Shown piece by piece: positions 11,020 to 28,299 of a DNA stretch of 54,477 nucleotides (its first letter is position 1; each line of letters begins with the position of its first letter). The position numbers and the translations under genes are program-made. The notes beneath the pieces were generated by a model that worked only from the letters and a program-made list of their open reading frames with translations, ran no database searches and was not told the DNA's origin. This stretch comes from an uncultured Eggerthellaceae bacterium (GTDB lineage: Bacteria; Actinomycetota; Coriobacteriia; Coriobacteriales; Eggerthellaceae), in NCBI GenBank assembly GCA_947650915.1, contig CANSWY010000011.1, positions 1 to 54,477 on the forward strand, written 5' to 3'.

Positions 11020-11113
11020 TTGCAGAATCCCCTTCGCCCCTCGATAGCAAAACAACATAGTTGTTGTGGAATATATCATTTCAGAGGACATTTTCTTCAA
11101 CGTTCAAAAACAT

Positions 11114-11954: not shown

Positions 11955-12035
11955 ACCCGTTGGGGACGGGGCCAATGAACCCGTTGGGGACGGGGCCAAT
12001 GGGTTCCCGCCCAATAGCCCCGTCCCCATTGGGTT
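11955..12035. repeat. Triple B-family REP cluster at a double gene truncation
   Basis: Two direct copies (11955-11977 and 11979-12001) of AACCCGTTGGGGACGGGGCC and one inverted copy (12011-12035) whose complement is AACCCAATGGGGACGGGGCT. The same family flanks the frameshifted RAYT at 27.5-28.4 kb. Left of it a YhgE gene lacks its 5' part; right of it a response-regulator gene lacks its 5' part. Confidence 0.85.
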
Positions 12036-12615
12036 GCATCCGATAGTCGGTGATGCGGATAGCGGTGAAGGAGCTATTGAGTTATGCGCTCAGCATCGAC
12101 CTGATCTTGTGCTTTTGGATGTGAAGATGCCCAACGTCGACGGAATAGAGGCTTGTGGCGTGATCCGCGGACGATTTCCAGACACTGCAGTTGTGATGCT
12201 GTCGCTCTATGGCGAGAAAGAGCGAGTTTTGGGAGCCATTGCAAATGGCGCTGATGGGTATCTTCTGAAGAGCATCCATGCAAAGCAACTGCGAAGCAAA
12301 TTGCGCTCGGTGCTTGGAGGTGGAGGAGCTCTTTCAGACGAGGCTTCATCCATCTGCATCGAGGCGCTTCGCAGGCTCAGTTTTGGCATCGTTGATCAGA
12401 AAGAGACGAACAGGCTTGCTTCTTTGATGACGGTACATGAAAGAGAGATCTTGCGTTTTGTGGCCGTCGGTGCTTCCAACAAGGAGATCGCTGACAGCCT
12501 TCATATCAGTGAAAGCACCGTCAAGAAGCAGTTGAGCCAGCTTATGATGAAGCTGGGGTTGGCCAACCGCGTGCAGGCTGCGGTTTTCGCACTGCGCTCC
12601 GGACTTGCACAGTAG
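12034..12615 (+). pseudogene. NarL/LuxR-type response regulator, N-terminally truncated
   Basis: The reading frame encodes most of a NarL-family regulator: a receiver from VVGDAD-like residues onward with the phosphoacceptor Asp in LVLLDVKMPN, Lys in GYLLKS, a linker, and a complete LuxR-type HTH (LMTVHEREILRF...ISESTVKKQL). The first 25-30 residues, including the acidic pocket before the first helix, are missing. The frame emerges from the B-family palindrome through a TTG at 12034 with no ribosome-binding site. If expressed it could bind DNA but should not be phosphorylated normally. It lies 169 bp upstream of the transhydroxylase operon on the same strand, so an ancestral role in its control is possible. 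Confidence 0.7.
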
Positions 12616-12784: not shown

Positions 12785-13000
12785 ATGCCACGGTTCACGA
12801 AAGACACGAAGCTGAAGGTCATCGTCGACGATCCTGAGGCTAGCGCCATTCTGCAAGAGTGGTTTCCCATGGACCTGCACGGGTCAATGGTGAAGATGGC
12901 GTATGGGATGACGCTTGAGAAGTGTTTTTCCTTTCCGCAGGTGAAAGTGACGGATGAGGAAAAGGAGCAGATCTACCAACAGCTGGCTGAACTCGGCTAG
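12785..13000 (+). CDS. Small protein leading the transhydroxylase operon
   Basis: A 71-residue protein with GAGGAGA before the ATG. It starts PRFTKDTKLKVIVDDPEA, has an amphipathic middle (LQEWFPMDLHGSMVKMAYGM) and ends in a Glu-rich helix. The pattern of a short beta-like start, a position for a failing 'PEA..IL' helix and then GMTLE recalls the small helical domains found at the ends of some hydrolases and redox enzymes, or a DUF1858-like fold, but the match is weak and there are no cysteines. It lies 27 bp before the large subunit on the same strand, so it is probably co-transcribed. A chaperone or accessory role for the Mo enzyme is only inference. Confidence 0.75.
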   Translation: MPRFTKDTKLKVIVDDPEASAILQEWFPMDLHGSMVKMAYGMTLEKCFSFPQVKVTDEEKEQIYQQLAELG

Positions 13001-13027
13001 CCCCCATCTTGAGAGAGGAGAATCGTC

Positions 13028-15634
13028 ATGGGGATCAAGGTAGACAAGAGAGTCATCAAACCTGTTGCATGCAGCTCTACTGGGGGTGATCCAGTCGTCG
13101 TTGAGTCCTCGGACGGCAAGATCGTCCGCATCAGACCGTGCAACTGGACGGAAAGCTATACGGAAGAGGAGCTGAAGGACACTTTCTGGGAGATCGATGC
13201 ACGCGGTAAGAAGCTGAAGTGTCCTCGCAAGGCGATGCCTCCTTACTACGCACTGGCATACAAGAAAAAGACTTATTCGAAAGACCGCGTCATGTACCCT
13301 TTGAAGCGCGTCGATTGGGAACCAGGCGGAGATCCAGACAAAGTCAATGCGCAAAACCGCGGCAAGAGCGGCTATGAGCGCATCTCGTGGGATGAGGCTA
13401 TTGATATCCTTGAATCCGAGATACGCCGCATGTACGACACTTACGGCCCCTATGGCATCCTAGCCATCGGCTATGACGGTCACAAGGAGTCCAAGTGCGT
13501 GCATTATGGCTCCGGCTGTCAGATGCAAGTGCTGCGCATGATCGGTGGCTACATTCGTGAAGTGCGCACCCCTGACTCGGTAGAGGGGTTCTATTGGGGT
13601 GGCAAGCATGTATGGGGTACTGGCGCATGGGACGGCCTGGGTCTTCCCGAGGAGTACTACAACACGATGAAGGATGTCTCAGAGCATACCGAGTTCTTGG
13701 TGATGCAGGCGGGAGACCTTGAGACGACGGCTAACTATGCCTCCCAGTTTCAAAGCTGCATGATGAAGTATTGGCTTGATCTAGGCATCGAGATGGTGGC
13801 TGTGGACCCGTTCGGCACCTATACCGCAATGGCGCATGATGAGATCACGTGGATCCCCATCCTCCCGAACACGGACGCTGCGCTTGATTTCGCTTTGATC
13901 AACGTATGGATCAAAGAAGGGCTCTACGACAAGGAGTACGTGGACACCCACACTATCCATTTCGACAAGATGGCGGACTACGTCATGGGCAAGGACGACG
14001 GCATTGAGAAGACCCCTGAATGGGCTTCGAAGATAACCGGCATCCCAGAGTGGACCATCAAGGCGCTCGCGCGCAAATGGGGAACCTCCGCTACCACGAT
14101 CGCGCACTTCTGTGGGGCGCATATCCGTGGGCCCTACAGCTTCGAGCCGGGGCGCACGGAGTACTATAAGCTTGCGATGCAGGGCATCGGCAAACCTGGC
14201 GTGCAGATGATCCACCTGTTCTCGTGGAACGTTGCCGAGCAGGTGGTTCCCAGCGTGGGCGGCATGCTCTCCTTCATGTACATGGGGCACGCTGATATGC
14301 AAGACATTCCTGGACCCACATCGCTGCCGCGTACGGCAGTGCATCATGCCATCATGGATGGCAAGTACGAATGGTATGGCAGTCCCTCCATCATCATGGC
14401 ACCGCCCGAGGATCAGTTCATCAAGCGCACGTATCCGTGCGAGGAGGCAAATGGAACCGAGTTCCATATGATCTGGTCCGAGAAAGCATCGAACCAGGGT
14501 TCTTGGAATGGCGGCTTCTATCTACAGGATGCTTACCGCAATCCGAAGATCGAGTTCTTCGTTTCCAACCATCAATGGATGCAGCAAGACACCATCTTCG
14601 CTGACCTCATTCTGCCTGTGACCACATGCCTTGAGGAAGTGGACTCCATCGGTTCTAGCCAGGGCGGGTCTCTTTGTTTCTATGGCGTGCAGGAGAGGGC
14701 CTGTGACGTAGTGGGCGAATCGAAGTCCGACTATGAGATCGCAGCAGAGCTGGCGAAACGTTTCGGTATCTACGAGGAGTACACAAAAGGCCTGAGCGTG
14801 GATGAGGAGATCGCTGCAGCGTACGAAGAATCGTTCATCAAGGACTTCATCAGCTTCGATGAACTGAAGAAAAGGCAGTACTTCATACCGCCTGTGAATC
14901 CGGACTGGAAAGACATCCCTGCCGGCATGCGCGAGTTCTATGAGGACCCTGAGAGCCATCCGCTCCATACGCCATCAGGCAAGATTGAATTCTGGAGCGA
15001 AGCCTTGGCTGAACACTTCCCCGACGATAAAGAACGCACGCCAATGGCGAGGTGGACCATCGGCGGCTCCAAGGAGGACGGTTTCGCTCATGATGAGTCC
15101 CAGTGGGGAGAAAAAGCGAAGACATATCCGCTGCTGCTCAACACGAGCCCGGGTCGCTGGCGCATCCATGTGCAGAACGACGACATTTGCTGGCTGCGTG
15201 AGATCCAGACTTGCAAGATTCGTGGCAAGGATGGATATATGTATGAGCCGGTATGGATGTGCCCGGAGTTGGCGGCCGAACGCGGCATCCAGAACGGCGA
15301 CATCGTGAAAGTTTTCAACGGTCAGGGAATCGTGTTGGGTGCTGCGCGCATATCCGAGCGCGTGCTCCCGAATTCCATCAAGATGGATAAGGGTGCTCAT
15401 CCCGATCCCATCGCACCGCACATCGACCGTGGAGGGTGCACGAATCTCATCAGTCCGCCCGATCCCATCTCCAAGCATTGCGAAGGCTTCGTGGTCACGG
15501 GTTATTTGGTGGATGTTGCCAAGCTGGAGGATGCGGAGATGGAACAGTGGAAAAGGGATTACCCGGAGAACTTCGCCCGTACCTATGATCCGGCGTCTGG
15601 GTCAAGCCGTGCTGGTTGGATCGTGAAAGAGTAG
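13028..15634 (+). CDS. Transhydroxylase-like molybdopterin oxidoreductase, large subunit (copy 1)
   Basis: An 868-residue bis-MGD enzyme of the DMSO-reductase superfamily, close in size and partner to the large subunit (AthL) of Pelobacter pyrogallol-phloroglucinol transhydroxylase. As in that enzyme, the N-terminus lacks the Cys motif for a [4Fe-4S] cluster. TPDSVEG (D183, S184) and H152 match, with nearly the same spacing, the Asp-Ser and His I recall from its active site, where Ser ligates Mo. The cofactor-binding C-terminal domain includes LLNTSPGRWR and APHIDRGG. No Tat signal is present, so it is cytoplasmic. GAGAGGAG precedes the ATG at 13028. The small subunit follows after 10 bp. It could instead be a related catechol dehydroxylase; the substrate is not determinable from sequence. 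Confidence 0.85.
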   Translation: MGIKVDKRVIKPVACSSTGGDPVVVESSDGKIVRIRPCNWTESYTEEELKDTFWEIDARGKKLKCPRKAMPPYYALAYKKKTYSKDRVMYPLKRVDWEPGGDPDKVNAQNRGKSGYERISWDEAIDILESEIRRMYDTYGPYGILAIGYDGHKESKCVHYGSGCQMQVLRMIGGYIREVRTPDSVEGFYWGGKHVWGTGAWDGLGLPEEYYNTMKDVSEHTEFLVMQAGDLETTANYASQFQSCMMKYWLDLGIEMVAVDPFGTYTAMAHDEITWIPILPNTDAALDFALINVWIKEGLYDKEYVDTHTIHFDKMADYVMGKDDGIEKTPEWASKITGIPEWTIKALARKWGTSATTIAHFCGAHIRGPYSFEPGRTEYYKLAMQGIGKPGVQMIHLFSWNVAEQVVPSVGGMLSFMYMGHADMQDIPGPTSLPRTAVHHAIMDGKYEWYGSPSIIMAPPEDQFIKRTYPCEEANGTEFHMIWSEKASNQGSWNGGFYLQDAYRNPKIEFFVSNHQWMQQDTIFADLILPVTTCLEEVDSIGSSQGGSLCFYGVQERACDVVGESKSDYEIAAELAKRFGIYEEYTKGLSVDEEIAAAYEESFIKDFISFDELKKRQYFIPPVNPDWKDIPAGMREFYEDPESHPLHTPSGKIEFWSEALAEHFPDDKERTPMARWTIGGSKEDGFAHDESQWGEKAKTYPLLLNTSPGRWRIHVQNDDICWLREIQTCKIRGKDGYMYEPVWMCPELAAERGIQNGDIVKVFNGQGIVLGAARISERVLPNSIKMDKGAHPDPIAPHIDRGGCTNLISPPDPISKHCEGFVVTGYLVDVAKLEDAEMEQWKRDYPENFARTYDPASGSSRAGWIVKE

Positions 15635-15644
15635 GAGCTGACAG

Positions 15645-16445
15645 ATGAAGACGTTGTTGATCGACTTGGACAAGTGCGTCGGCTGCTACGCTTGCCAGGT
15701 CGGATGTAAGGATGAGCATTGCGAGCAGTCATGGATGCCTTACGCTGAGGCGCAACCGGAGACGGGACAATTCTGGATGCGCGTGGATGAGCGAGAAAGG
15801 GGCAAGCGGCCGCACGTGAAGGTCACCTACATTCCCACTCCTTGTCAGCACTGTGCTGATGCACCGTGCATGAAGGTGGCAAAAGACGGAGCGGTGTATC
15901 GCCGTGAAGATGGATTGGTGATAATCGATCCAGAGAAGGCCAAGGGGCAGAAAGCCATCAAGGATGCATGTCCCTACCATGCCATTTACTGGAACGATGT
16001 CCTGAATATCCCGCAAAAGTGCACTGGTTGTGCGCATCTCATCGATGAGGGCGACACCATCACGCACCCGCGTTGCTATGACAATTGCGTGCACGGTGCC
16101 ATTTCTTGGGGCGAAGAGAGTGCTCTTGATCTTGCTGATGCCGAGAGGTTGCATCCTGAGTTCGGCACATCTCCGAAGATCTGGTACAAGGGATTGCCGA
16201 AGCGCTTCATCGCGGGTCGTGTATACGATCCAGAAGAAAAGGAGGTCGTGGAAGGAGCGGTCGTCACAGCATCCGGAGGCGGTGGCTCATTCACGACGAA
16301 GACCAACTGGATTGGCGATTTCTGGTTGAGGGGGTTGCCTGACGGTGACTGGACGGTGTCTATCGAGGGCCAAGGCAAGAAGAAGGTCTTGGAGGTGTCC
16401 ACCAAGCAAGAGGATGTTGGCCTGGGGGATGTGCCCCTGAACTGA
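15645..16445 (+). CDS. Transhydroxylase-like Fe-S small subunit (copy 1)
   Basis: A 266-residue electron-transfer partner. C11, C14, C17 and C21 open the first ferredoxin motif; further clusters are indicated by PCQHCADAPC, the CPYHAIYW region, KCTGCAH and PRCYDNC, enough cysteines for three [4Fe-4S] clusters as in AthS. The last 75 residues form a transthyretin/Cna-B-like beta domain (VYDPEEKEVVEGAVVTASG...DFWLRGLPDGDW). That is an unusual addition for a ferredoxin subunit but matches the C-terminal beta domain of the Pelobacter protein. It lies 10 bp after the large subunit, so translation is likely coupled. No signal peptide. Confidence 0.87.
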   Translation: MKTLLIDLDKCVGCYACQVGCKDEHCEQSWMPYAEAQPETGQFWMRVDERERGKRPHVKVTYIPTPCQHCADAPCMKVAKDGAVYRREDGLVIIDPEKAKGQKAIKDACPYHAIYWNDVLNIPQKCTGCAHLIDEGDTITHPRCYDNCVHGAISWGEESALDLADAERLHPEFGTSPKIWYKGLPKRFIAGRVYDPEEKEVVEGAVVTASGGGGSFTTKTNWIGDFWLRGLPDGDWTVSIEGQGKKKVLEVSTKQEDVGLGDVPLN

Positions 16446-16473
16446 CTCACTGTATAAGCCGTGAGCTGAGAAC

Positions 16474-16530
16474 CTGAGAGCGCCCAGGGCGCATGTCTGA
16501 TGACGAGCCCGATGGTGCTCTCAGCTTTTT
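16474..16530 (+). terminator. Terminator after transhydroxylase module 1
   Basis: CTGAGAGC (16474-16481) pairs with GCTCTCAG (16517-16524) and is followed by CTTTTT. The 35-nt loop is long but itself contains short GC-rich pairing (GCCCAGGGC). It would end the first transcript before the TetR gene. Confidence 0.55.
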
Positions 16531-16602
16531 ATAATACAAAGCATCAAGGGGGAATGCGTTCGTTGCAGGGAGTGTGCAGCGGCGGAATTGGGGGGGGCTT
16601 CC

Positions 16603-17166
16603 ATGGATGTGCGCGAGCTGGTTGAGAGTGCTTTCAAGGAGTTGTTGAGAGATAAACCGTATGGAAAGATCACGGTATCTGAGATCTGCCGAATGGCTGG
16701 TGTGACGCGCAAAGCGTTCTATTCGGTCTTCCGTGACAAAGAGGCGGTCGTCGAGGCATTGTTCGATGAGCACGTTGTGAATCGCTTGCGCGATCTGCAT
16801 CGGTTGTTCAGCTTGCAGGACAGGATGACGCTCAATGACACGTTCGTCGTGCGCATGTATGAAGCCATCTATGCTGAGAAAGACTACTACATCAATCTGG
16901 TCGGTCCACTACGCGGGCATGATGATACGTTCCTTCGCGTGGTGACCAATTCGATCTACAAGTTAAACATGGATAATACTTCCATACTTGATGTCATACA
17001 GTCGGAACGCAAGCGTGATTATGTCGCTTACTTTTTCGCTTCATCCCAAGCCATGCTCATGCAGAAGTGGATCAGCGACAGAATGGACATCGGACCCGAT
17101 GTCCTCGCAGAGATCTACAACGATTTGACAATGCCGTTCCTTCTGACGCTTCTTGACCGTCGTTGA
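16603..17166 (+). CDS. TetR family transcriptional regulator within the transhydroxylase locus
   Basis: A 187-residue regulator. The N-terminal helix-turn-helix is clear (PYGKITVSEICRMAGVTRKA, then FYSVFRDKEAVVEALF), and the rest is an all-helical ligand/dimer domain. I chose the ATG at 16603, placed 5-6 nt after a run of eight G residues; a TTG 15 bases upstream is less likely. It lies between the two transhydroxylase modules on the same strand, preceded by a terminator, so it is the obvious candidate to sense the aromatic substrate and repress one or both modules (inference). Confidence 0.85.
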   Translation: MDVRELVESAFKELLRDKPYGKITVSEICRMAGVTRKAFYSVFRDKEAVVEALFDEHVVNRLRDLHRLFSLQDRMTLNDTFVVRMYEAIYAEKDYYINLVGPLRGHDDTFLRVVTNSIYKLNMDNTSILDVIQSERKRDYVAYFFASSQAMLMQKWISDRMDIGPDVLAEIYNDLTMPFLLTLLDRR

Positions 17167-17425
17167 TGACGCGCGCACCTTTGCGCTTCCTGCAAGATCC
17201 TGCCGTTCGTGCCCCTCAAAACACCTCAGACACAGAAGCGGCAGATTGAGCAGAATTTGGATACAAATGACTTGAAATGTCCCTCTGGTTGCTCAGGCGC
17301 AAGCGATTGAACCAGCAATGGACCAATGCGCGGATCATGGTCATTGCCCCTCTTCTCCTCACTTTGGTTTGATGAATACAAGAAGTCCGCCAGTGCGGCG
17401 GGCTGAGGAGCGAGAGGAGTGCGGC

Positions 17426-20140
17426 ATGAGCAGTGAAGACATCCGGACCACCGCTGCGAAGCAGAGCGATTATTCAACGACGCTTCAAAGCATTGCGTGC
17501 GGAGGCACGGGCGGCGAGTTGACCGCGGTCGACTCAGTGGACGGCAAGATCGTCCGCATCCGTCCCTACAACATCGACTCGAAGTACACAAAAGAGGAGC
17601 TTGCGGATTCTCTTTGGGAATTGGAGAAGGACGGAAAAACGTTCTCGCCTCCGATGAAGACCGCTCCGAACTATTTCGCGCTGGCATACAAGAACCGCGT
17701 CTACTCCAAGAACCGCGTCATGTATCCGCTCAAGCGCGTCGATTGGGAGCCAGGTGGCGATCCGGACAAGATCAATGCTGCGAATCGAGGCAAGTCCAAG
17801 TTTGAGCGCATCAGCTGGGACGAGGCGCTCGACATCATGGAGAGCGAGCTGAAGCGCATCATCAGTACCTACGGACCATATTCCGTGCTGACGGTAGGCG
17901 AAGATGGTCATCGTGAATCCAAAGACCTGCATGCTGGTGGCGGAATGCATTCGAATCTCATGAGCAAGCTTGGCGGCTACACTCGCGAAACGCGCACACC
18001 GGACTCGGTTGAGGGATGGTATTGGGGCGCCAAGCATGTGTGGGGTTCTGGCTCCAATAAGGGCTTGGGCATGATAGCCCCGCCTCAGACTGGTTACAAC
18101 TCCTGGAACGTCATCAAGGACATCACGGAATATTCTGAGCTCGTCTGCTTCGACGCGGGCGACTGGGAATTGACGCAGAATTACGGAAGCCAGTTCTGGT
18201 CGCGACTGCTGAAGTACTGGGAGGAGCTGGGCAAGGAATTCGTCATCGTGGACCCGTTCTGCAATTACACGGCCGTATGCCACGAGACCATGAAATGGAT
18301 CCCCATTCTTCCCAACACTGATGTTGCATTCGATTTCGGGGTCATGTACGTGTGGATCACCGAAGGCCTCTACGACAAGGATTATGTAGACACTCACACG
18401 ATCCACTTCGACAAAGTGCGCGACTATATCCTGGGCACCGACGAAGAGGGCATCGCAAAAACGCCGCAATGGGCATCTGAGCGATGCGGCGTGCCGGTGC
18501 ATACCATCAAGGCGTATGCACGAAATGTGGCCAAGAAGGTCACGTCGCACGCGCACTTCAGCTCGGGTTCCGTCAAAACGCCCTACTCTCACGAACCGGG
18601 TCGTACTGGTGCATATAAGCTGGCCATGCAGGGACTTGGAAAACCCGGTGTGCAGCAGCTGCATTTGAACGCATCCAGCATGGCGAAGGCGCGCATCGCA
18701 CGCTCTACGTCCGCTCCGTACAGCTCTATCAACCAATGCCGCATGTTCTACCCCAATGCACAATCCATTCCCCGCACCATGGTCGCCGAAGCGCTGCAGA
18801 AAGGCGAGATCAAGTGGTGGGGCAGCCCCTGCATCGTGTATGTCGAGACCTCAGAGCAATTCCAGGAATTCAACTACCCGGCGAAGCCTGAAGCGGTGCT
18901 CGGCATGATGCGCGCGATGGCTGAGGCGGCAGGCATGGAGCCGCCCACTGAGGCTCCGAAGGTGGAGAAAGTGCACATGCTCTGGTCTGAGAAGCCTTGC
19001 AACATGAATTGCTGGGATGGCGGTTTCAACTATCAAGATGCCATCCGCACCAACGAGGTGGAGTTCTTCGTCACCAATCACCAGTGGCTTGAGAACGACT
19101 CGCTCTTCGCTGATCTGGTGCTTCCGGTCACCACCTGCGTGGAAGACAATGACTCCATGGGCTCCGGCATGATCGTCGCGCAACCCCATTCAGGGCTCAC
19201 GCCTCCAGGTTGCGATCGCGTGGGAGAATCTTTCTCTGACTTCGAGATCGCGTGCATGATCGGTGACCGCTTCGGCGTTCGCGACCAGATCGATCTGGGC
19301 ATGTCTGTAGATGAGTGGATCCAATATGGTTTCGATCAGTCACGCCTGGGTGAAGAGATCTCATGGGATGAGTTCAAGGAGAAGGGCTACTACTTCCCGA
19401 AGCTGGATGAGAATTGGAAGGACCTCCCGCCGGGAATGCGCCAGTTCTATGAGGATCCCGAGAGCTTCCCGTTGGATACGCCGTCCGGCAAGATCGAATT
19501 CTGGTCTCAGGCGCTGGCAGACAACTTCCCTGACGACAAAGAACGCACGCCCATGGCTCGCTGGATCATCGGCGGTCCAGCAGAGGAGGGTTGGACTCAC
19601 GATGAGACGCTGTGGGGTGAACGCTGCAAGAAGTACCCGCTGCTCGTGACGGCGAACCCCGCTCGCTTCCGCGTTCATGTGCAGGGAGACGATATCAAGT
19701 GGTTCCGCGAGATTGAGACCTGCAAAGTGAAGGGCCCAGACGGCTACCTCTACGAGCCGGTCTGGATGAACAAAGTGGACGCTGAAGCCCGCGGCATCGA
19801 GGCCGGGGATATCGTGAAGCTCTACAACGAGCGCGGCTGCGTGCTCACTGCAGCCCGCATTTCCGAGCGTATCACGCCGGGCTCCGTCGTGGTCAACAAG
19901 GGCTCTCGCGTGGATCCCATCGCACCGCACCTTGACCGCGGTGGCGCGATCAATCTCATCAGCCCCAACAATCAGGTGTCGAAGCATTGCAAAGGTTTTG
20001 CGGTCACGGGTTACCTGCTTGAGGCGGAGAAGCTCACGCAAAGCGAATACGACGAGCTGAAGGCGAAGTATCCCGAGGCGTTCGCCCGTGACTACGATCC
20101 CGCCATCGGCATCAATTACAAGTCTTGGGTCGTCGACTAG
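17426..20140 (+). CDS. Transhydroxylase-like molybdopterin oxidoreductase, large subunit (copy 2)
   Basis: A 904-residue paralogue of the enzyme at 13028. Long stretches align closely (RVMYPLKRVDWEPGGDPDK, DEALDIMESEL), and the active-site set is kept: H162, D193 and S194 in TPDSVEG. It differs by a longer N-terminus and by an insertion of about 30 residues near 500-530 (EAVLGMMRAMAEAAGMEPPT) that is absent from copy 1. There is no N-terminal Fe-S motif and no Tat signal. The ATG at 17426 follows AGAGGAG; upstream in-frame sequence lacks a good start. Divergence between copies suggests different substrates rather than simple dosage. Confidence 0.85.
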   Translation: MSSEDIRTTAAKQSDYSTTLQSIACGGTGGELTAVDSVDGKIVRIRPYNIDSKYTKEELADSLWELEKDGKTFSPPMKTAPNYFALAYKNRVYSKNRVMYPLKRVDWEPGGDPDKINAANRGKSKFERISWDEALDIMESELKRIISTYGPYSVLTVGEDGHRESKDLHAGGGMHSNLMSKLGGYTRETRTPDSVEGWYWGAKHVWGSGSNKGLGMIAPPQTGYNSWNVIKDITEYSELVCFDAGDWELTQNYGSQFWSRLLKYWEELGKEFVIVDPFCNYTAVCHETMKWIPILPNTDVAFDFGVMYVWITEGLYDKDYVDTHTIHFDKVRDYILGTDEEGIAKTPQWASERCGVPVHTIKAYARNVAKKVTSHAHFSSGSVKTPYSHEPGRTGAYKLAMQGLGKPGVQQLHLNASSMAKARIARSTSAPYSSINQCRMFYPNAQSIPRTMVAEALQKGEIKWWGSPCIVYVETSEQFQEFNYPAKPEAVLGMMRAMAEAAGMEPPTEAPKVEKVHMLWSEKPCNMNCWDGGFNYQDAIRTNEVEFFVTNHQWLENDSLFADLVLPVTTCVEDNDSMGSGMIVAQPHSGLTPPGCDRVGESFSDFEIACMIGDRFGVRDQIDLGMSVDEWIQYGFDQSRLGEEISWDEFKEKGYYFPKLDENWKDLPPGMRQFYEDPESFPLDTPSGKIEFWSQALADNFPDDKERTPMARWIIGGPAEEGWTHDETLWGERCKKYPLLVTANPARFRVHVQGDDIKWFREIETCKVKGPDGYLYEPVWMNKVDAEARGIEAGDIVKLYNERGCVLTAARISERITPGSVVVNKGSRVDPIAPHLDRGGAINLISPNNQVSKHCKGFAVTGYLLEAEKLTQSEYDELKAKYPEAFARDYDPAIGINYKSWVVD

Positions 20141-20166
20141 CAACCGACCTGCAAAGGAGGATAGTG

Positions 20167-20967
20167 ATGAAAGCATTTCTTATCGACCTGACGAAGTGCG
20201 TCGGCTGCCACGACTGCCAGATCGGGTGCAAAGACGAACATTGCGATCAAGCATGGATGCCCTATGCCGAAGCGCAACCAGAGGTTGGGCAATTCTGGAT
20301 GAAGGTCAAGCAGTTTGAGCGTGGTCACGCGCCGCATGTCAAAGTCACTTATATGCCGACCATGTGCAACCATTGCGAGAACGCGCCGTGTGAGGCTGCT
20401 GCGAAGAACGGAGCGGTTTATCGGCGTGAGGATGGCTTGGTCCTCATCGATCCGGCTAAGGCCAAGGGCCAGCGCGAGATCATGGATGCTTGCCCGTACC
20501 ACGCCATCTACTGGAACGACGCTCTGAACATTCCCCAGAAGTGCACGGGCTGCGCCCACCTTCTGGACGGCGACCATCCTATCAGCGTTCCGCGCTGCGT
20601 GGATAACTGCCACGTCGATGTCATCACGTTCGGCGAGGAAGCTGAGCTTGATCTGGAAGGCACCGAGGTGCTGCATCCGGAGTACGGCACGAAGCCGCGC
20701 GTGTTCTATCGCGGTCTTCCGAAGAAGTTCATCGCCGGCACGGTGTTCGATCCGGATGCTGAAGAGATCATCGAAGGCGCGCTGGTGACAGCCACGGGAG
20801 ACGCAGGCACGTTCACCGCTACGACAGACTCCTGGGGCGATTTCTGGCTCAGGGATCTTCCTGACGCAGAATGGACCGTGACCATCGAGCATGGCGGCAA
20901 GAAGAAGAGCGTTGCTGTGAGCACGGTCTCTGAAGACCAAGGCTTGGGAGACGTAGCGCTCTGTTAG
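20167..20967 (+). CDS. Transhydroxylase-like Fe-S small subunit (copy 2)
   Basis: A 266-residue protein, the same length as its paralogue at 15645. C11, C14, C17 and C21 and the later motifs MCNHCENAPC, CPYHAIYW, KCTGCAH and PRCVDNC are conserved, again enough for three [4Fe-4S] clusters. The C-terminal beta domain is also kept (FDPDAEEIIEGALVTATG, DFWLRDLPDAEW). GCAAAGGAGG precedes the ATG, 26 bp after its large subunit. Confidence 0.87.
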   Translation: MKAFLIDLTKCVGCHDCQIGCKDEHCDQAWMPYAEAQPEVGQFWMKVKQFERGHAPHVKVTYMPTMCNHCENAPCEAAAKNGAVYRREDGLVLIDPAKAKGQREIMDACPYHAIYWNDALNIPQKCTGCAHLLDGDHPISVPRCVDNCHVDVITFGEEAELDLEGTEVLHPEYGTKPRVFYRGLPKKFIAGTVFDPDAEEIIEGALVTATGDAGTFTATTDSWGDFWLRDLPDAEWTVTIEHGGKKKSVAVSTVSEDQGLGDVALC

Positions 20968-20982
20968 ACGCCATTTCCTTCC

Positions 20983-21026
20983 AGGAGCCCGGCTCCACCC
21001 CCCCCCTAGAACGGGGCTGGGCTCCT
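20983..21026 (+). terminator. Hairpin after transhydroxylase module 2
   Basis: AGGAGCCC (20983-20990) pairs with GGGCTCCT (21019-21026), with CCCC/GGGG pairing inside the loop. There is no strong U-tract, only CTCTC, so it may be an attenuating hairpin or mRNA 3'-end stabiliser. Confidence 0.45.
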
Positions 21027-21122
21027 CTCTCGTTCGACGGCATCCATGTCGAACGCATATGCAGCACAAGACGACGAAGACGAAAGAGCAGGATCATGTG
21101 CTTCAGACCAGCAGAGATTCAA

Positions 21123-21338
21123 ATGAAGAAATGCCCCAGCTGCGGCAAGGCTTGCAAACCAGTTGACAAGGTCTGCCCTGATTGCGGTGCAGAACTGGAT
21201 AACAGCATCAAGGATTTCGATGCTGATCAAGCGAAGCTCGATGCCGCAGCAACCCCCAAAGCTCCTGGGGCGCCTCAAGCACCTGGCGCTCCCAAGCCGC
21301 CATCGGCACCAGGAGCACCCAAGCCGCCAACTGTTTGA
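21123..21338 (+). CDS. Zinc-ribbon miniprotein with Pro-Ala tail
   Basis: A 71-residue protein with an N-terminal zinc ribbon (MKKCPSCGKACK, then VCPDCGAEL: two CxxC pairs) and a low-complexity tail of A-P-G-A-P repeats. It probably starts at the ATG at 21123; an upstream ATG at 21096 would add nine residues, and neither has a strong ribosome-binding site. It lies between module 2 and the VOC gene on the same strand. Function unknown; such ribbons commonly mediate protein or nucleic acid contacts. Confidence 0.6.
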   Translation: MKKCPSCGKACKPVDKVCPDCGAELDNSIKDFDADQAKLDAAATPKAPGAPQAPGAPKPPSAPGAPKPPTV

Positions 21339-21470
21339 GCTTGGCACAGCAGAGGGCAGCGCTCGATCGTTGAAGCGCTGCCCGAACCCTCTTCAATCAG
21401 CAGGACATGCAAAGAAAGAGGCACTTCGCGTGCCCTGTGAGTCCCATTGCCTCATCTAGGAGGATCTGAA

Positions 21471-22007
21471 ATGACTGAGAGCATGTTCGATTCATACGGT
21501 ATCAAGCAACTGGGCTATTACGTAGCCAGCATCGAAGAGGCGGCAGAACAATTGCGGACCGCCCTTGGAGCTGGGCCCTTCGTCGATCTGGGCGTGAGCA
21601 ACAATGAGAACGTGGACATCCGTGGAGAAAGGGTCAGCCTTGACATGCGCACGGCCCTTGGGCATGTCAACGACATCCAGATCGAGCTCATTGAGGTAGT
21701 GAGCGAAGGGCCGGACCCTTATCACGAGAGCGGAAGGTACGGTCTGCACCATTTCTGCATCTATGCCGACGATGTCGATGCGGCAGTGAAGCAGATGGAG
21801 AATGCGGGCATGGCCTTGGCTATGCGCATGACCAGCGGACAGGGCATGGAGATCGCTTACCTGGATGCCCGTAACCTCCTTGGACAATATATCGAGGTCA
21901 CCACCCCCTCAGAGCAGCTTTGGCAAGGCATCAAGGCCATTCATGAGAAATCTCCTGCAGATGCGCCTGCACTCATGCCCATGTCAGCCCTCATGGGCAG
22001 CAACTAG
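21471..22007 (+). CDS. VOC (glyoxalase/bleomycin-resistance fold) family protein, 1
   Basis: A 178-residue protein with the two-module beta-alpha-beta-beta-beta VOC fold: IKQLGYYVASIEEAAEQL near the start and LHHFCIYADDVDAAVKQM in the middle, with E-type metal ligands possible in YIEVTTP. VOC enzymes use a divalent metal for isomerisation, hydrolysis or ring cleavage. The Met at 21471 has TAGGAGG in front; an upstream extension does not. It heads a run VOC-SDR-MFS-SDR-VOC. In this context it may process the product of the transhydroxylase (inference). Confidence 0.82.
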   Translation: MTESMFDSYGIKQLGYYVASIEEAAEQLRTALGAGPFVDLGVSNNENVDIRGERVSLDMRTALGHVNDIQIELIEVVSEGPDPYHESGRYGLHHFCIYADDVDAAVKQMENAGMALAMRMTSGQGMEIAYLDARNLLGQYIEVTTPSEQLWQGIKAIHEKSPADAPALMPMSALMGSN

Positions 22008-22020
22008 GACGAGGAGGTAG

Positions 22021-22848
22021 ATGATGACCACAGGTGGGCTTATCGCGGCAAAGATGGGTCCTTTGGATGGACCCGACCCGTTCGACCTTACTGGGCGTGT
22101 TGCGCTCATTACCGGTGCAAGCTCCCACGGCATCGGAAGCGCTTCGGCTAAAGTGCTGGCGGCTCATGGCGCAAAGGTGTTCCTCACCGCACGTCGTGAG
22201 GATAAGCTGAAGGCCGTGGCGGCCGAGATAGCGGCAGCCGGTGGCATGGTGTCACACCTCGCCACCGATGTGTCCAGTGAGGAAGGCTGCAAGGCAGCGG
22301 TCGAGGCGTGCGTTGATGCTTTCGGGCGTCTCGACATCATGGTGCTTGCTGCCGGCATGTCTGGGCTTTCAGCTCAGAAGGGCATGGATGCGGTGTTCGA
22401 CACCGACAACTGGCGGCGCATGATGTCTGTCAATCTGGATGGCGTGTTCTTCATGATCAAGCATGGGTGGGAGGAGTGCGCGAAGGGTGGCGTGGGCGCC
22501 ATCGTGCCGATCGCTTCTCTTGCCGCTTGGCACGCTGCTGGATCTGCTGCTTATACAGCTACGAAGGGAGCGATACGTTCACTCACGCAGTACTTCGGAA
22601 AGCTTTTGGCGCCCGAAAACGTGCGCGTGAACACGCTCTATCCGGGATACATCGAAACAGATATGACCCATCCAGAAGGAACGGATGCCATCTTTGAAAA
22701 GGTGGCTGAGAAGATGGTAGGCAAGATTCCGCTCGGTCGTGTCGGCACAGTAGACGACTGCGCTAATGCGGTGCTCTATCTGGCATCTGATGCATCCAGC
22801 TTCATGACAGGACAGCATCTCATCGTAGATGGCGGCGAACTCGCTTGA
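22021..22848 (+). CDS. SDR family oxidoreductase, 1
   Basis: A 275-residue classical SDR: TGASSHGIG cofactor motif, an LAAGMSG segment in the NNAG position, Ser in IASLAAW, YTATK catalytic pair, and the C-terminal VDGGELA. GAGGAGG lies before the start at 22021-22024, 13 bp after the VOC gene. In the known phloroglucinol pathway, the product of transhydroxylation is reduced by an NADPH-dependent SDR, phloroglucinol reductase; this is a candidate for such a step, but the match is by family and context only. Confidence 0.85.
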   Translation: MMTTGGLIAAKMGPLDGPDPFDLTGRVALITGASSHGIGSASAKVLAAHGAKVFLTARREDKLKAVAAEIAAAGGMVSHLATDVSSEEGCKAAVEACVDAFGRLDIMVLAAGMSGLSAQKGMDAVFDTDNWRRMMSVNLDGVFFMIKHGWEECAKGGVGAIVPIASLAAWHAAGSAAYTATKGAIRSLTQYFGKLLAPENVRVNTLYPGYIETDMTHPEGTDAIFEKVAEKMVGKIPLGRVGTVDDCANAVLYLASDASSFMTGQHLIVDGGELA

Positions 22849-22873
22849 GTTCGACCGGAACAAGGAGGATCAA

Positions 22874-24340
22874 ATGACTCAAGCAGATCAGGGGACGGCA
22901 GCAGCCGTGAACCCGTTCCTCAGTGCATCAAGCAACAAGAAACGCATGACGCTGATCGGCCTGTATCTTGCGGTGATCGCGAACATGTTGGTATCCAATA
23001 CCAACTCCACGATGCTCCCCGCTGCTGCGGCTGACATCGGGGGCATGGACATCTATGGATTGGCGCAAGCCGTTAGCGGCATCATAGGCGTGTGCGCCAT
23101 GCCCATCTATGGCTTTTTGGGCGCGCGCAACCCGGCCTTGAAGCGTTGGCTTGCAGGCGGTTCGCTCTTAGTGGGTGCGGCTGTGCTGGGCATCCGTGGC
23201 ATTGCGACGAACATGGTGATCGTGCTGGTTGCCAACGTCTTCTGGGGCCTTGTGAGTGCTGGTGTGTTCGCCATCGGCTTCACCATGATCCGCGATATAT
23301 ATGACAAGAAGCAAGCAGGCGTGTATTTGGGCTTGGTGGGAACCATGATGTCTGTGGGCATCTTGGCTGGTCCTTTCGTGGGCGGCATCGTGATCGACCA
23401 GATTGGCTGGCGTGTCTGGTGCTTCATTCTGTTCGCATTCCTGCTGGCTGGCGGTTTAATGGTTCTCATGGGTGTGAAGGTGAGCGCTGCTGATGCAGCT
23501 CCATTCGCGGTCAAAGGCGGCAAGTTCGATTTCGCGGGCGCAGCTGCTGTCACCATCTTCTTGGGCTGTCTCATTATCGCGCTCTCTATGGGCAGCAACT
23601 ATGTGAAGTTCGGCACGCCGCTCAACACTGGTTTGTTGGTGGTGTCCGCCGTTGCGCTCATAGCTCTCGTGCTCATCATCAAGAAGAAAGGAAACGATGC
23701 CATCATTCCCGTGAATGCCATCAAGGACCGCAATACGCTCGTCTTCACGGGAGCGAACTTCTTGCACAACTTCGGGGCCATGGCCATCACGTTCTTTCTG
23801 CCTGGTTTCATCATGCGCACTCTTGCCACCGATCCGATCGTCGAGACGATCGGCCCAGCTCTGGCTGGCGGCTTGGCTACATCGCTCATGGCGGTGCTTG
23901 GTCTATTCCTAGGCCCCGTGTTCGGCAAGATGATCGCGAAGCAGAACACGGCAAAGTGGGTCATGACCTTGGGCAATGTGTTCCGTGTGATCGTCATGGC
24001 TGCGTATGTGTTCGTGTTGGTGCCCGGAGTGCCTGTATGGGTAATCTACATCATCTCGTTCGTCGGCGGCATTTTCAACTCTCAGCAAACGGTCACGCAG
24101 TCGGCTGGCCCGCAGATCATGCTGAAGCCGGATCTGCGCACTTTGGGCAACTCAGTGATTCAATTAGGGCAGAACATCGGCGCGGGAGTTGGCATGGCGA
24201 TCTTCACATTGCTCACAGCCATGGATCCGACGACCGGCATGCGCCTTTGCATGATCGTCGCGCTGGTCGCATGGATCATTCTGTTCCTCATCACCTTCTT
24301 GCTGCAGAAGCCCACTGAGGCTGAAGCGGACGAGAGTTAG
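22874..24340 (+). CDS. MFS transporter
   Basis: A 488-residue membrane protein with 12 or more predicted helices, of the drug/metabolite (DHA2-like) MFS type. After a hydrophilic N-terminus come LIGLYLAVIANMLVSN, then a loop 2-3 region with GFLGARNPALKRW and GLVGTMMSVGILAGPFVGG, the antiporter-motif-C-like helix. ACAAGGAGG precedes the ATG at 22874. It is flanked on both sides by SDR genes in one strand-consistent run, so it probably imports the aromatic substrate or exports the product. Confidence 0.87.
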   Translation: MTQADQGTAAAVNPFLSASSNKKRMTLIGLYLAVIANMLVSNTNSTMLPAAAADIGGMDIYGLAQAVSGIIGVCAMPIYGFLGARNPALKRWLAGGSLLVGAAVLGIRGIATNMVIVLVANVFWGLVSAGVFAIGFTMIRDIYDKKQAGVYLGLVGTMMSVGILAGPFVGGIVIDQIGWRVWCFILFAFLLAGGLMVLMGVKVSAADAAPFAVKGGKFDFAGAAAVTIFLGCLIIALSMGSNYVKFGTPLNTGLLVVSAVALIALVLIIKKKGNDAIIPVNAIKDRNTLVFTGANFLHNFGAMAITFFLPGFIMRTLATDPIVETIGPALAGGLATSLMAVLGLFLGPVFGKMIAKQNTAKWVMTLGNVFRVIVMAAYVFVLVPGVPVWVIYIISFVGGIFNSQQTVTQSAGPQIMLKPDLRTLGNSVIQLGQNIGAGVGMAIFTLLTAMDPTTGMRLCMIVALVAWIILFLITFLLQKPTEAEADES

Positions 24341-24373
24341 AGCAGCGTTCTCAGCCGATCTGAAAGGAATCCT

Positions 24374-25204
24374 ATGAAAAGACTGCAAGTAGTCACTGGC
24401 GGGACCTCAGGCATGGGTCTTGCCACCGCCATGGCGCTTGGGAAGTTCGGTCCGGTGCTGGTGGGCGGACGAAACCAGAAACGCCTGGATGATGCTGTGA
24501 CGAAGCTGACCGATGCGGGCATTGAGGCATACGGAAAAACGGTGGACATATCCGATCGCACTTCGTTGGATGAATTCGCTGCCTATGCGGCGTCCCTGGC
24601 TCCTTTGGGCAACGTTGTGAATGCGGCTGGCGTGGATGCTGGCGGTGGGGATCTCATCGTCAAGGTGAACATGGTCGGCACCGTTAATTTCGTGGAGGCG
24701 TTCTTGCCTCACCTCGAAAAAGGAGCCACTCTGGTCAACTACTCTTCCATCACGGGCTACTTCGTGCAGCCCACTCCCGAAGAGCGTGCCGTCTGGGACG
24801 AGCCGAACGATCCAGATTTCTTCGCCAAAGCGAAAGCGGCCATCGATGCGCGTGAGGTTCCTGAGGCCATGGCTGCCATGGGCGAGGACTATCGGTACTA
24901 CCCCATATCGAAGACGTTCACCCAATACTATACGCGAGCGAACACGCGGCGATTCGGTCAGAAGGGATGCCGTATCTTCTCCATCGCACCAGGTGCATTC
25001 GATACACCCATGTTGCGTGAAGCCTCCGACGAGACTGTCGAGGGCATCAGGCGCGGCACAGCGTTCGGTCGTCTGGGCGATCCTGGCGAGATGGCTGAAT
25101 TCATCGTGCGCTTGCTGGAGCCGGGACTTGAGTATTTGACGGGTGTCGACTTGATCTTGGACGGTGGCAAATTCGGCATGACCATGGCAAAGCAACTTGA
25201 TTAG
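24374..25204 (+). CDS. SDR family oxidoreductase, 2
   Basis: A 276-residue SDR that is atypical in part. The N-terminus is TGGTSGMGLATAMAL, NVVNAAGVD is the NNAG equivalent, Ser is in NYSSITG, and the catalytic pair is YYPISK. Between Ser and Tyr is an insertion of about 40 residues, including AVWDEPNDPDFF and MGEDYRYY, likely a substrate lid. Similar inserted SDRs include hydroxysteroid dehydrogenases, so other ring ketones are possible. AAAGGAAT precedes the ATG, 33 bp after the MFS gene. Confidence 0.84.
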   Translation: MKRLQVVTGGTSGMGLATAMALGKFGPVLVGGRNQKRLDDAVTKLTDAGIEAYGKTVDISDRTSLDEFAAYAASLAPLGNVVNAAGVDAGGGDLIVKVNMVGTVNFVEAFLPHLEKGATLVNYSSITGYFVQPTPEERAVWDEPNDPDFFAKAKAAIDAREVPEAMAAMGEDYRYYPISKTFTQYYTRANTRRFGQKGCRIFSIAPGAFDTPMLREASDETVEGIRRGTAFGRLGDPGEMAEFIVRLLEPGLEYLTGVDLILDGGKFGMTMAKQLD

Positions 25205-25219
25205 AAAGCGAGAGCAGTT

Positions 25220-25849
25220 ATGGCACGCAAAGATTTCACAGACTACTTCCAGGGTAAGGATTGGGTGCATCAACTGGGTTTTTGCGCCCCTGATTGGCGC
25301 GCTTTCATGACGGCACATAACCGTTTGTTCGGATCCGGCCCGTTCTTCTATACCACCAATACTTTCGGCAAGCTTCTCTATCATGGTGACGAGGTGAACT
25401 GCGAAGGACTGGAGTTCCATGCTTGCTACGGTGCGTGGGGCAGCCACTCCATTGAAGTGGTGACGCAGAATGACTGGTCCATTCCCACGATGTTCACCGA
25501 GCTGAACAAGGAGGAGGAGCCAGGGCTCAATCATATCCACATTTTCGTCGATAGCTTGGCTGAGGCTCAGGATGCTTGTGACTTCCTCGGAATCGAGGTC
25601 ATCACGGTTGGGTATCCGGATCTTGAAAACGCACTGGAAAAGGCGCGTGCAACCGGCACTGATGAGGCTATGGTGCGTGCGAACGCCGGCAAGCCTTCGT
25701 TCATGGTTGCGGATATGCGCCAGGAGCTCGGATTCGCTGTGCAGTTCGTGGAGGAGCGTGCCAAGCGCTTGCATGAGGCGATCATCGGTGCACGAGAGAA
25801 ATGGGATGGGTCTGAAGCGACGATGTTCATTCCGCTTGGTGGTGATTGA
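25220..25849 (+). CDS. VOC family protein, 2
   Basis: A 209-residue VOC-fold protein opening WVHQLGFCAPDWRAFMTAH, with GLNHIHIFVDSLAEAQDA as the second module's metal-binding start. It is longer and only distantly similar to the VOC at 21471. It starts 15 bp after the second SDR, and a strong hairpin at 25862-25890 follows it, so it probably ends the VOC-SDR-MFS-SDR-VOC transcript. Substrate not assignable. Confidence 0.82.
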   Translation: MARKDFTDYFQGKDWVHQLGFCAPDWRAFMTAHNRLFGSGPFFYTTNTFGKLLYHGDEVNCEGLEFHACYGAWGSHSIEVVTQNDWSIPTMFTELNKEEEPGLNHIHIFVDSLAEAQDACDFLGIEVITVGYPDLENALEKARATGTDEAMVRANAGKPSFMVADMRQELGFAVQFVEERAKRLHEAIIGAREKWDGSEATMFIPLGGD

Positions 25850-25861
25850 TCTTCAGTGATT

Positions 25862-25918
25862 GGCTGCACCCTGTGGCACAGGGTGCAGCCCGATTTGATC
25901 AGTACCGTTTGATCAGTA
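25862..25918 (+). promoter_or_regulatory. Hairpin and TTTGATCAGTA direct repeat before the slyD-like gene
   Basis: GGCTGCACCCTGT (25862-25874) pairs perfectly with ACAGGGTGCAGCC (25878-25890), a terminator-strength stem with weak U-tract. Directly after it TTTGATCAGTA occurs twice (25894-25904 and 25908-25918), a 14-bp period, just upstream of the next gene. The second part could be a regulator site. Confidence 0.5.
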
Positions 25919-25939
25919 TCCGAGTGTTTGGAGCAAAAC

Positions 25940-26443
25940 ATGGCAGAGATCGGTGATGTGGTGCGCATCCATTGCGTGGGAAGCCTAGATGACGGCTCTC
26001 TATTCTGTGATTCGCGAAAAGCAGGCGAGCCCATTGAATTCACCGTTGGATCTCAGACGCTTCTCGCCGCTCTGGAAGAAGCGGTGCTCGATATGGAGCC
26101 GGGGATGATGCGCAAGTTGCGAATACCGGCTGATAAGGCATACGGGCCCTATGATGAGTCATTGATCGAGGCGATTCCTAAAGCGCGATTCCCGGGTTGG
26201 GAGCGTCTTCCCCTTGGAGAGTATATCGAGGTGCAGACTACTGCTGGCATTTTGAGAGTCAGGGTGGCATCCATTGATGAGGAGTCAGTCAGGTTCGACC
26301 ATAATCATGAGCTTGCTGGGAAAGATCTTACATTCGACATCGAGCTTTTGGAGGTCGTGACACCTGACGCCATCGCACATGAGGCCCATGCAGCTGATTG
26401 CGGATGTGGATGCCAGCGGCTGAAAGCATCACTTCAGTCATGA
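25940..26443 (+). CDS. SlyD-type FKBP peptidyl-prolyl isomerase with metal-binding tail
   Basis: A 167-residue FKBP-fold prolyl cis-trans isomerase and chaperone. DHNHELAGKDLTFDIELLEV near 125-145 is the SlyD signature; an insert-in-flap domain occupies the middle. The C-terminal tail HEAHAADCGCGCQ has alternating His and Cys, like the nickel-binding tail of SlyD. Start ATG 25940 follows TTGGAG. It sits next to the molybdenum locus, so a role in folding or metal handling for those enzymes is plausible but unproven. The next gene overlaps its stop. Confidence 0.85.
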   Translation: MAEIGDVVRIHCVGSLDDGSLFCDSRKAGEPIEFTVGSQTLLAALEEAVLDMEPGMMRKLRIPADKAYGPYDESLIEAIPKARFPGWERLPLGEYIEVQTTAGILRVRVASIDEESVRFDHNHELAGKDLTFDIELLEVVTPDAIAHEAHAADCGCGCQRLKASLQS

Positions 26444-26721
26444 ACTGCGACCGTTCCATCATTGAAGAGCTCAAGTCTCAAGGGGCGCTCAAGGCGCTTG
26501 CGATCGTTTCATCCCATGAAGCGTCCGGAACGCTGTTGGCCAGTGATGGGTCAGAGTTGTACGAGTATGGTGGGTTCGGCAGCGGACGCTGGGTGCGCAA
26601 AGGCGACCTTCATGATGGCTCAGTCCTCTACTTAGGAAGTGCCACACATGCAGGTCATATCGAGCTGAAAGCCTATGCCGTGCTGATCGACGGTTCTTGG
26701 CATAGTGTGATCAATGTCTAG
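26440..26721 (+). CDS. Hypothetical protein overlapping the slyD-like gene
   Basis: A 93-residue protein whose ATG overlaps the upstream TGA (ATGA at 26440-26443), so translation is probably coupled. I do not recognise it. It opens NCDRSIIEELKSQGALKALAI and ends with a beta-rich half (YLGSATHAGHIELKAYAVLID). There is no signal peptide or membrane segment. Confidence 0.7.
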   Translation: MNCDRSIIEELKSQGALKALAIVSSHEASGTLLASDGSELYEYGGFGSGRWVRKGDLHDGSVLYLGSATHAGHIELKAYAVLIDGSWHSVINV

Positions 26722-27535: not shown

Positions 27536-28299
27536 CTATTTCAAGCGGCATGCTCTTCTGGTCACACCCCGGCCGATCCCTGTCATCCGCTCAAGCTGCC
27601 TTGTCGACAGCCCCAACGCGTAGAGATGCGCTATCGCTCGGTCTCTTTCTGAGCGCTCCATCAAGGGGACCGCTTCGGCGAAGCCTTCGCCGCATTCGAT
27701 GCGCGCGATGCGGCGCGCGCATTCATCATCGACCCTGCGCCTGTGCGTCGGCGCCTCGACCATGCCCAGATGGACATCCTCGGCATGGAACCTCTTGAAG
27801 CCCTCCGGTCCGCCGAACAGGTCGACGATCCCATCCATGTGAGCGTGCGCGGGCCATCCATGAAGAGCGGATAGCTTGACCAACGATACCGGGCAGGATC
27901 TTCGAACCCTTTGTCCCGACAGTTCAGATGGATGTATCTGACGGCTTCCATCAGATACGCATCGCTTTCTATGGGAAAGCTCGCGAACCGCTCCTGGAAG
28001 ACCGGCCCCACATGGCCGTTCTTGCGATTGAACCTGGACGCATGACCTGAGCAGAGCCAATGGATGGCTTTCTGGAGTGAAGAGAGGTCCGCGGCCTTCG
28101 TCACGAGATGGACATGGTTGTCCATGAGGCACCATGCAGGGGCCTCGACCATCTCGTCGCTGCGCCTTGCAGCATCATCCAGGCCACGGAGAAAACGGGT
28201 CCTATCATCGTCATCTTCGAACAGCGCCCGCCGTCCCGCTCCGCGCATCGTCACATGGTACCAACCGCTCTCCGAAGCCTGCCGTGCACGTCTGGTCAT
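27536..28299 (-). pseudogene. REP-associated tyrosine transposase (RAYT 1), frameshifted
   Basis: A Y1/IS200-like transposase. It opens GWYHVTMRGAGRRALFEDDDD, carries the HUH motif as DNHVHLV and the tyrosine in VRYIHLN. It reads well from 28299 to about 27850, then the frame is lost; the expected continuation (MDGIVDLFGG...) resumes in another frame and runs to 27536, ending with an HTH-like LSTRQLERMTGIGRGV. The shift lies between about 27837 and 27860. Inverted B-family REPs flank it. It resembles the intact RAYT 2 at 35476. Confidence 0.8.

Follow-up and report, generated by a model that had tools for sequence, protein, structure and literature searches.

AthL-type molybdenum enzymes in two adjacent cassettes, one with a VOC partner, of an uncultured Eggerthellaceae bacterium

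Results and discussion

The 54,477-nucleotide contig CANSWY010000011.1 of an uncultured Eggerthellaceae bacterium (assembly GCA_947650915.1; contig C11 in our numbering, its whole length being referred to as the window) carries, at positions 12,785 to 26,721, two adjacent gene modules, each encoding the large subunit (LS) and small subunit (SS) of a cytoplasmic molybdenum enzyme related to AthL, the pyrogallol-phloroglucinol transhydroxylase of Pelobacter acidigallici. The new observation is the partnership of an AthL-clade enzyme with VOC1, a protein of the VOC (vicinal oxygen chelate) type encoded in module 2. The modules are best read as two independent cytoplasmic AthL-clade cassettes lying side by side, of which module 2 would be a substrate-inducible, horizontally spread system for import and dehydroxylation (a probability of about 0.5). 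Its enzyme, which belongs to the subgroup here called clade A, probably removes a hydroxyl from a compound other than that of the known phenol transhydroxylation pathway, because the epimerase-like partner is nearly constant and the steps known to follow transhydroxylation are missing.

The large subunits belong to the AthL clade

Both LS1 and LS2 matched PF21423 (AhtL-like_1st), Molybdopterin and Molydop_binding above cut-off. LS1 matched the solved AthL large subunit (4v4c_A) with E 2.4e-96, compared with 9e-17 for the structure of acetylene hydratase. In a tree of 29 large-subunit proteins built under a mixture model, AthL, LS1, LS2, two other AthL-like large subunits of the same genome, those of relatives and members from Chloroflexota formed a single clade (100/100), in which AthL is a long, distant early branch. 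An earlier note, made from the sequence alone, had called for a phylogeny of this kind, and the tree puts both enzymes in the transhydroxylase clade, in line with that note. Clade A (motif PDSVEG) includes LS1 and LS2, and clade B (PDSWEG) includes the other three AthL-like copies of the same genome (L003-L005). LS1 and LS2 share 54% identity; because they are distinct lineages, the suggestion that they differ in specificity is likely to be right.

AthL residues H144 and D174, which we take to be catalytic, and S175, presumably the Mo ligand, are kept in LS1, LS2, every aligned Coriobacteriia member of clades A and B and some Chloroflexota. At R153, W176 and W354, assumed to be other pocket residues together with Y404, LS1 and LS2 have different residues or gaps, and the alignment around Y404 is poor. 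The chemistry site therefore looks conserved, unlike the substrate pocket. In the same alignment D174 was absent from several Chloroflexota relatives of the AthL clade.

In the accessible part of the literature, the characterised molybdoenzymes of gut Coriobacteriia are mostly catechol dehydroxylases. The regulator, cytoplasmic LS/SS pair and MFS (major facilitator superfamily) transporter found here resemble the layout of the Gordonibacter dehydroxylase clusters (Eadh, Gp Hcdh, Gs Vadh), which share a cytoplasmic large subunit, an Fe-S partner, an MFS transporter and a dedicated regulator (PMC12771579); the host family is also the same. However, it is highly improbable that LS1 and LS2 are ordinary catechol dehydroxylases such as Dadh, Hcdh or Eadh, and their membership of that group was rejected by the tree. 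The Gordonibacter enzymes belong to another clade of the DMSO (dimethyl sulfoxide) reductase superfamily, and the cluster passages available from that source do not describe a VOC protein. Gordonibacter molybdoenzymes adjoining an Eah-like amidohydrolase, which were identified by gene context and not by accession and are probable catechol/urolithin dehydroxylases, formed a separate group (100/98) and are only about 25% identical to LS1 and LS2 over a third of the length. Published catechol dehydroxylases cluster near acetylene hydratase, the weaker structural match of LS1, and away from Pht/AthL (PMC7028382). Steroid 21-dehydroxylase was also rejected, being set apart by gene neighbours alone (FdhD and SPFH/band-7 in the published Elen_2451-2454 cluster). 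A search of the literature on transhydroxylases in Eggerthellaceae, with subscription papers outside its reach, found no report on this AthL-type clade.

VOC1 is a nearly constant partner of clade-A enzymes

Co-occurrence was surveyed in 138 Eggerthellaceae-family genomes. A strong VOC1 homologue was present in 24, every one of which (24/24) also has a clade-A enzyme; the 110 genomes that lack clade A were all without such a homologue (Fisher 5e-23, a value that ignores shared ancestry). At the genus level, where ancestry is corrected for in part, all 14 genera with VOC1 have clade A (2e-10). The two genes are usually close together, with 22 of 28 VOC1 genes at most 5 kb from a clade-A large subunit and the remaining ones on different contigs. 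Four genomes have a clade-A enzyme and no strong VOC1; in three of them (L073, L078 and L080) the cassette includes either a VOC2 homologue or a VOC protein less closely related to VOC1, and in the fourth (L075) it lies on a short contig. The link may extend past clade A: in L207 (G007:C9) a VOC protein directly adjoins a clade-B AthL-like enzyme.

The predicted structure of VOC1 (mean confidence, pLDDT, 92) had the putative epimerase 3gm5 as its best fold match (Z 15.7, root mean square deviation 2.1, 136 residues). Residues Q13, E72, H94 and E142, invariant in 25 VOC1 homologues, coincide in alignment with the metal-ligand positions of epimerases and glyoxalases; the Q/E/H/E set is also that of human glyoxalase I. 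VOC1 thus shares its fold and four ligand positions with methylmalonyl-CoA epimerase and glyoxalase I. It differs in being about 20% identical, in a Gln at the position of the first His ligand and in its genomic tie to a molybdenum enzyme. The second VOC protein, VOC2, matches VOC1 by profile (99.6% probability) and is predicted to adopt the VOC fold, again with 3gm5 as the best solved match (pLDDT 84.5 in the only confident one of five models, which ranged down to 44.7).

Substrate and rival pathways

A true pyrogallol-phloroglucinol transhydroxylase, acting in a gallate or tannin route with an SDR (short-chain dehydrogenase/reductase) as phloroglucinol reductase, would agree with the AthL-like subunit pair, the AthL clade and the conserved H144, D174 and S175. 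However, UbiD (gallate decarboxylation), Cyclase (DPGC type, dihydrophloroglucinol hydrolysis) and BKACE (triacetate cleavage, TAL-type) gave no match in the host genome (1.98 Mb, 98.6% complete), whereas control genomes did match. Because these families were not detected in so complete a genome, the gallate-phloroglucinol route was rejected and must be considered very unlikely, as must the role of phloroglucinol reductase that had been suggested for SDR1 or SDR2. Moreover, pocket positions 153, 176 and 354 differ from AthL, which forms its long separate branch, and a ring hydrolase was found in none of the related cassettes read. The substrate may be a polyphenol, as in the polyphenol- or catechol-processing island proposed in the earlier note, but the evidence names none.

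Equol clusters of the same family pair a Glyoxalase_4 racemase with an SDR (PMC8898433), and AthL acts on pyrogallol rings. Module 2 could by analogy belong to a flavonoid pathway, in which VOC1 would racemise and SDR1 reduce a flavanone or dihydroflavonol and LS2 would remove a B-ring hydroxyl, for example from the pyrogallol ring of gallocatechin. This is unlikely. A comparison was made with the Adlercreutzia-type equol cluster of L205, which, like its dihydrodaidzein racemase (DDRC), was recognised by gene set (flavin reductase, SDR and Glyoxalase_4 protein). VOC1 showed no significant BLAST similarity to the probable DDRC (BLASTP E 0.013 over 20 residues); by profile the two matched in part, with an hhalign probability of 88.6% limited to 88 columns, and SDR1 is 29% identical to the probable dihydrodaidzein reductase (DHDR); orthology of VOC1 and SDR1 with the equol-type racemase and reductase was rejected on these grounds. 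In both systems a Glyoxalase_4 protein is encoded in the same cluster as an SDR, but a relative of LS1 or LS2 is absent from the 20 kb read in L205, and the cassette described here has no flavin-dependent ring-cleaving reductase.

Alternatively, the substrate may not be aromatic. A cyclitol, a quinate-like acid or a steroid-like alpha-hydroxy ketone could be oxidized by an SDR, epimerised by VOC and dehydroxylated by the Mo enzyme, in keeping with the two SDRs, the epimerase fold of VOC1, the altered pocket positions and the genes of related cassettes. Two of the latter from one subclade (L083 and L119) encode a DASS transporter (dicarboxylate-type), LS, SS, small protein, FKBP and VOC1, SDR genes being few or absent. 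Those of Gordonibacter sp. 28C and Marseille-P2775 (L084 and L087) have an extra zinc alcohol dehydrogenase (c34) and, beside dehydrogenases, probable PntA/PntB genes for a proton-translocating pyridine-nucleotide transhydrogenase (c54/c65, assigned by eye), hinting at NAD(P)H balancing. However, the DASS carrier and the transhydrogenase are outside the window and the only characterised member of the clade acts on phenols, which leaves a non-aromatic substrate rather unlikely. Solved-structure searches (nearest to SDR1, 5x8h; SDR2 matching solved SDRs down to E 1e-15) indicated no specific function for either SDR. In Chloroflexota (L099, L102, L103, L106 and L113) the genes beside the AthL-clade enzymes are not for SDR or VOC; they include those for B12-binding radical SAM proteins and for a small membrane protein (c40).

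Small subunits and probable maturation helpers

SS1 matched the AthL small subunit (4v4c_B) over its whole length (E 2.8e-59). When aligned with it, both SS1 and SS2 have all 12 cysteines for three [4Fe-4S] clusters in the same places, and CarboxypepD_reg was found in each, so the small subunits are of the three-cluster kind with a C-terminal beta domain that had been described at first sight. Likewise, no Fe-S domain and no twin-arginine motif was found at the N-terminus of LS1 or LS2. These features and the three conserved residues of the large subunit are shared with AthL/AthS (4v4c), which differs from the system described here in its pocket positions 153, 176 and 354 and in that here the subunits are partnered with VOC, SDR, MFS, FKBP and zinc-ribbon genes.

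The zinc-ribbon protein of module 2 matched Zn_ribbon_3 just under the cut-off (E 4.5e-6), and its gene was seen in 20 related loci. Zinc ribbons of this kind, starting MCFRPAE and ending in a Pro/Ala tail, occur repeatedly within a genome, with a maximum of nine copies, and most lie a few kb from molybdoenzyme genes of several clades (other copies are G000:C5:35548, C23:14308 and C1:94314, with several in G068 and G029). This protein may well serve molybdoenzymes of Eggerthellaceae in general as an accessory. The FKBP gene is present in half of the related clade-A loci and also adjoins other molybdoenzymes of the same genome. As both genes are found beside other molybdoenzymes too, a part in maturation is a better reading for them than a step of the pathway, FKBP being a probable maturation chaperone and the zinc ribbon a probable molybdoenzyme accessory.

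Genes of the locus

All genes described between 12,785 and 26,721 are on the plus strand (Table 1). Reading of open reading frames together with Pfam recovered the arrangement set out in the earlier note, namely two adjacent LS+SS modules with TetR between them, followed by VOC-SDR-MFS-SDR-VOC and a SlyD-like protein. Two small proteins had been placed after VOC2; the SlyD-like FKBP is present, but the region beyond it is best read as one 93-aa protein, which had no Pfam match. Module 2 therefore runs TetR-LS2-SS2-zinc ribbon-VOC1-SDR1-MFS-SDR2-VOC2-FKBP-small protein. LS2 most likely starts at 17426 rather than 17318, with a ribosome-binding site (GAGGAG) just upstream. The gene for the 71-aa protein has 83% DNA identity to the equivalent place in L058, and a homologue of the protein gave no Pfam match. 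The genes of the locus recur together across many other genomes, so their grouping goes beyond chance.

Table 1. Features of the double cassette and of the gene preceding it
Feature	Position	Strand	Domains and remarks
LuxR-type response regulator, 5'-truncated	12034..12615	+	Pfam Response_reg from profile position 24, GerE; part of module 1; overlooked in the earlier note
Conserved 71-aa protein before LS1	12785..13000	+	family c61; overlooked in the earlier note
LS1, AthL-family bis-MGD Mo large subunit, 868 aa	13028..15634	+	PF00384, PF01568, PF21423
SS1, three-[4Fe-4S] small subunit, C-terminal beta domain, 266 aa	15645..16445	+	PF13247, PF13620
TetR-family regulator, module 2	16603..17166	+	PF00440, PF14278
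LS2, second AthL-family large subunit, 904 aa	17426..20140	+	Molybdopterin, Molydop_binding, AhtL-like_1st (PF21423)
SS2, three-[4Fe-4S] small subunit, 266 aa	20167..20967	+	PF13247, PF13620
80-aa zinc-ribbon protein (MCFRPAE..., Pro-rich tail)	21096..21338	+	between SS2 and VOC1; overlooked in the earlier note
VOC1, methylmalonyl-CoA-epimerase-fold metalloprotein	21471..22007	+	PF13669; putative ligands Q13, E72, H94, E142
SDR1, classical short-chain dehydrogenase/reductase	22021..22848	+	PF13561
MFS transporter	22874..24340	+	PF07690; 81% identical in L090
SDR2, short-chain dehydrogenase, insert before YxxxK	24374..25204	+	PF13561, PF00106
VOC2, VOC1 paralogue, altered ligand positions	25220..25849	+	profile match to VOC1; no Pfam over cut-off
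FKBP-type (SlyD-like) prolyl isomerase	25940..26443	+	PF00254
Small 93-aa protein (YLGSATHAGHIEL)	26440..26721	+	start overlaps FKBP stop; homologues beside clade-A enzymes

Separate origin and probable horizontal acquisition of the modules

The closest protein matches of the window are in Adlercreutzia and other Eggerthellaceae. In Adlercreutzia sp. ZJ473 the LS1 orthologue (94%) and an LS2-type enzyme (86%) are on different contigs. A tandem duplication giving rise to LS1 and LS2 was rejected on this evidence and on their separate lineages in the tree.

LS2 is 97% identical to a large subunit of Adlercreutzia murintestinalis, whose locus also has TetR, SS2, VOC1, FKBP and the small protein. 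An uncultured Coriobacteriia locus (L090) has the identical order VOC1-SDR1-MFS-SDR2-VOC2 at 73 to 89% identity, beside a large subunit of just 74%. As these two loci share different parts with the present one at differing identity, the cassettes look like mosaics that exchange parts. The GC content of the locus is 0.56, compared with 0.63 to 0.64 in the outer flanks, and G074, the only congener examined, had no match for the clade-A enzyme or VOC1. Given the low GC and the lack of the cassette in this congener, the region was most likely acquired horizontally.

Just right of the locus is an IS200-like (Y1_Tnp) transposase-like gene (27661-28299, minus strand) adjoining an ABC-2/DUF3533-like gene; it may be linked to mobility of the cassette. 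To the left, the truncated response regulator shares 50% identity with its full-length counterpart in Adlercreutzia sp. ZJ473, beginning at residue 47 of the latter. Relatives have a kinase homologue upstream, but none was found here when looked for; the gene thus appears to be what is left of a kinase and regulator pair, which in relatives stands before module 1. Short repeats (CCCGTTGGGGACGGGGCCAATG) are present at the regulator cut (11975-12040), where an opposite-strand ABC-2 membrane gene begins; the kinase was probably lost by recombination at this junction. Further left (5386-11100, minus strand), the translation shows a protein of 1904 aa that appears to be secreted and has repeats and a tail resembling a membrane anchor (GC 0.55). 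Of 50 named loci, 19 have a TetR gene next to the clade-A large subunit.

Proposed function of module 2

Expression of module 2 would be controlled by the TetR regulator, which may sense the substrate, a polyhydroxylated ring compound brought in by the MFS transporter. SDR1 and SDR2 would interconvert alcohol and ketone and so set the carbinol oxidation state, and VOC1, with VOC2, would epimerise or isomerise beside the ketone via a metal-bound enolate. LS2-SS2 would then bind the compound at serine-ligated Mo and, helped by acid-base action of His and Asp, remove the hydroxyl. Electrons would reach Mo through the three [4Fe-4S] clusters, the reaction probably being an electron sink, while FKBP and the zinc ribbon would act in maturation. 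Module 1 (LS1-SS1) may provide a second enzyme of other specificity, having lost the kinase, part of the response regulator and perhaps VOC and SDR genes of its own.

Besides the AthL-clade placement, the conserved residues and the VOC partnership, related cassettes speak for this scheme. Since SDRs are few or lacking in L083 and L119, the core of the cassette may be the enzyme, VOC1 and uptake, with SDRs an extension; in L084 and L087 the probable transhydrogenase genes adjoin dehydrogenases; and the Gordonibacter dehydroxylase clusters have a similar layout.

Several points weigh against this scheme. A reductive role for LS2 is an assumption, since the only characterised enzyme placed in the clade, a transhydroxylase, is redox-neutral. 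The Fisher values ignore shared ancestry, for which the genus counts correct only in part, and the chemistry suggested for VOC1 comes from its fold and from ligand positions assigned by alignment. In VOC2 the first ligand position is Q/M and the fourth Q, the set being kept in part and ligands likely lost. In addition, the A. murintestinalis locus is without SDR1, MFS, SDR2 and VOC2, indicating that these are not always needed.

On a broader view, put forward tentatively and with the odds somewhat against it, the locus may represent a two-component Mo dehydroxylation, in which an AthL-clade enzyme dependent on a dedicated epimerase-fold VOC metalloenzyme would serve as an electron sink on a non-catechol substrate. 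Such a system would have spread horizontally through gut and termite Coriobacteriia, with the Mo enzyme also in Chloroflexota. Compounds from the diet and the host are transformed by dozens of molybdoenzymes of gut Coriobacteriia that await characterisation. If this view is true, the AthL-type clade, with VOC as a fixed partner, would add a new type of reaction to be sought among them, and the VOC partnership points to substrates with a hydroxyl beside a ketone or on a polyhydroxylated ring.

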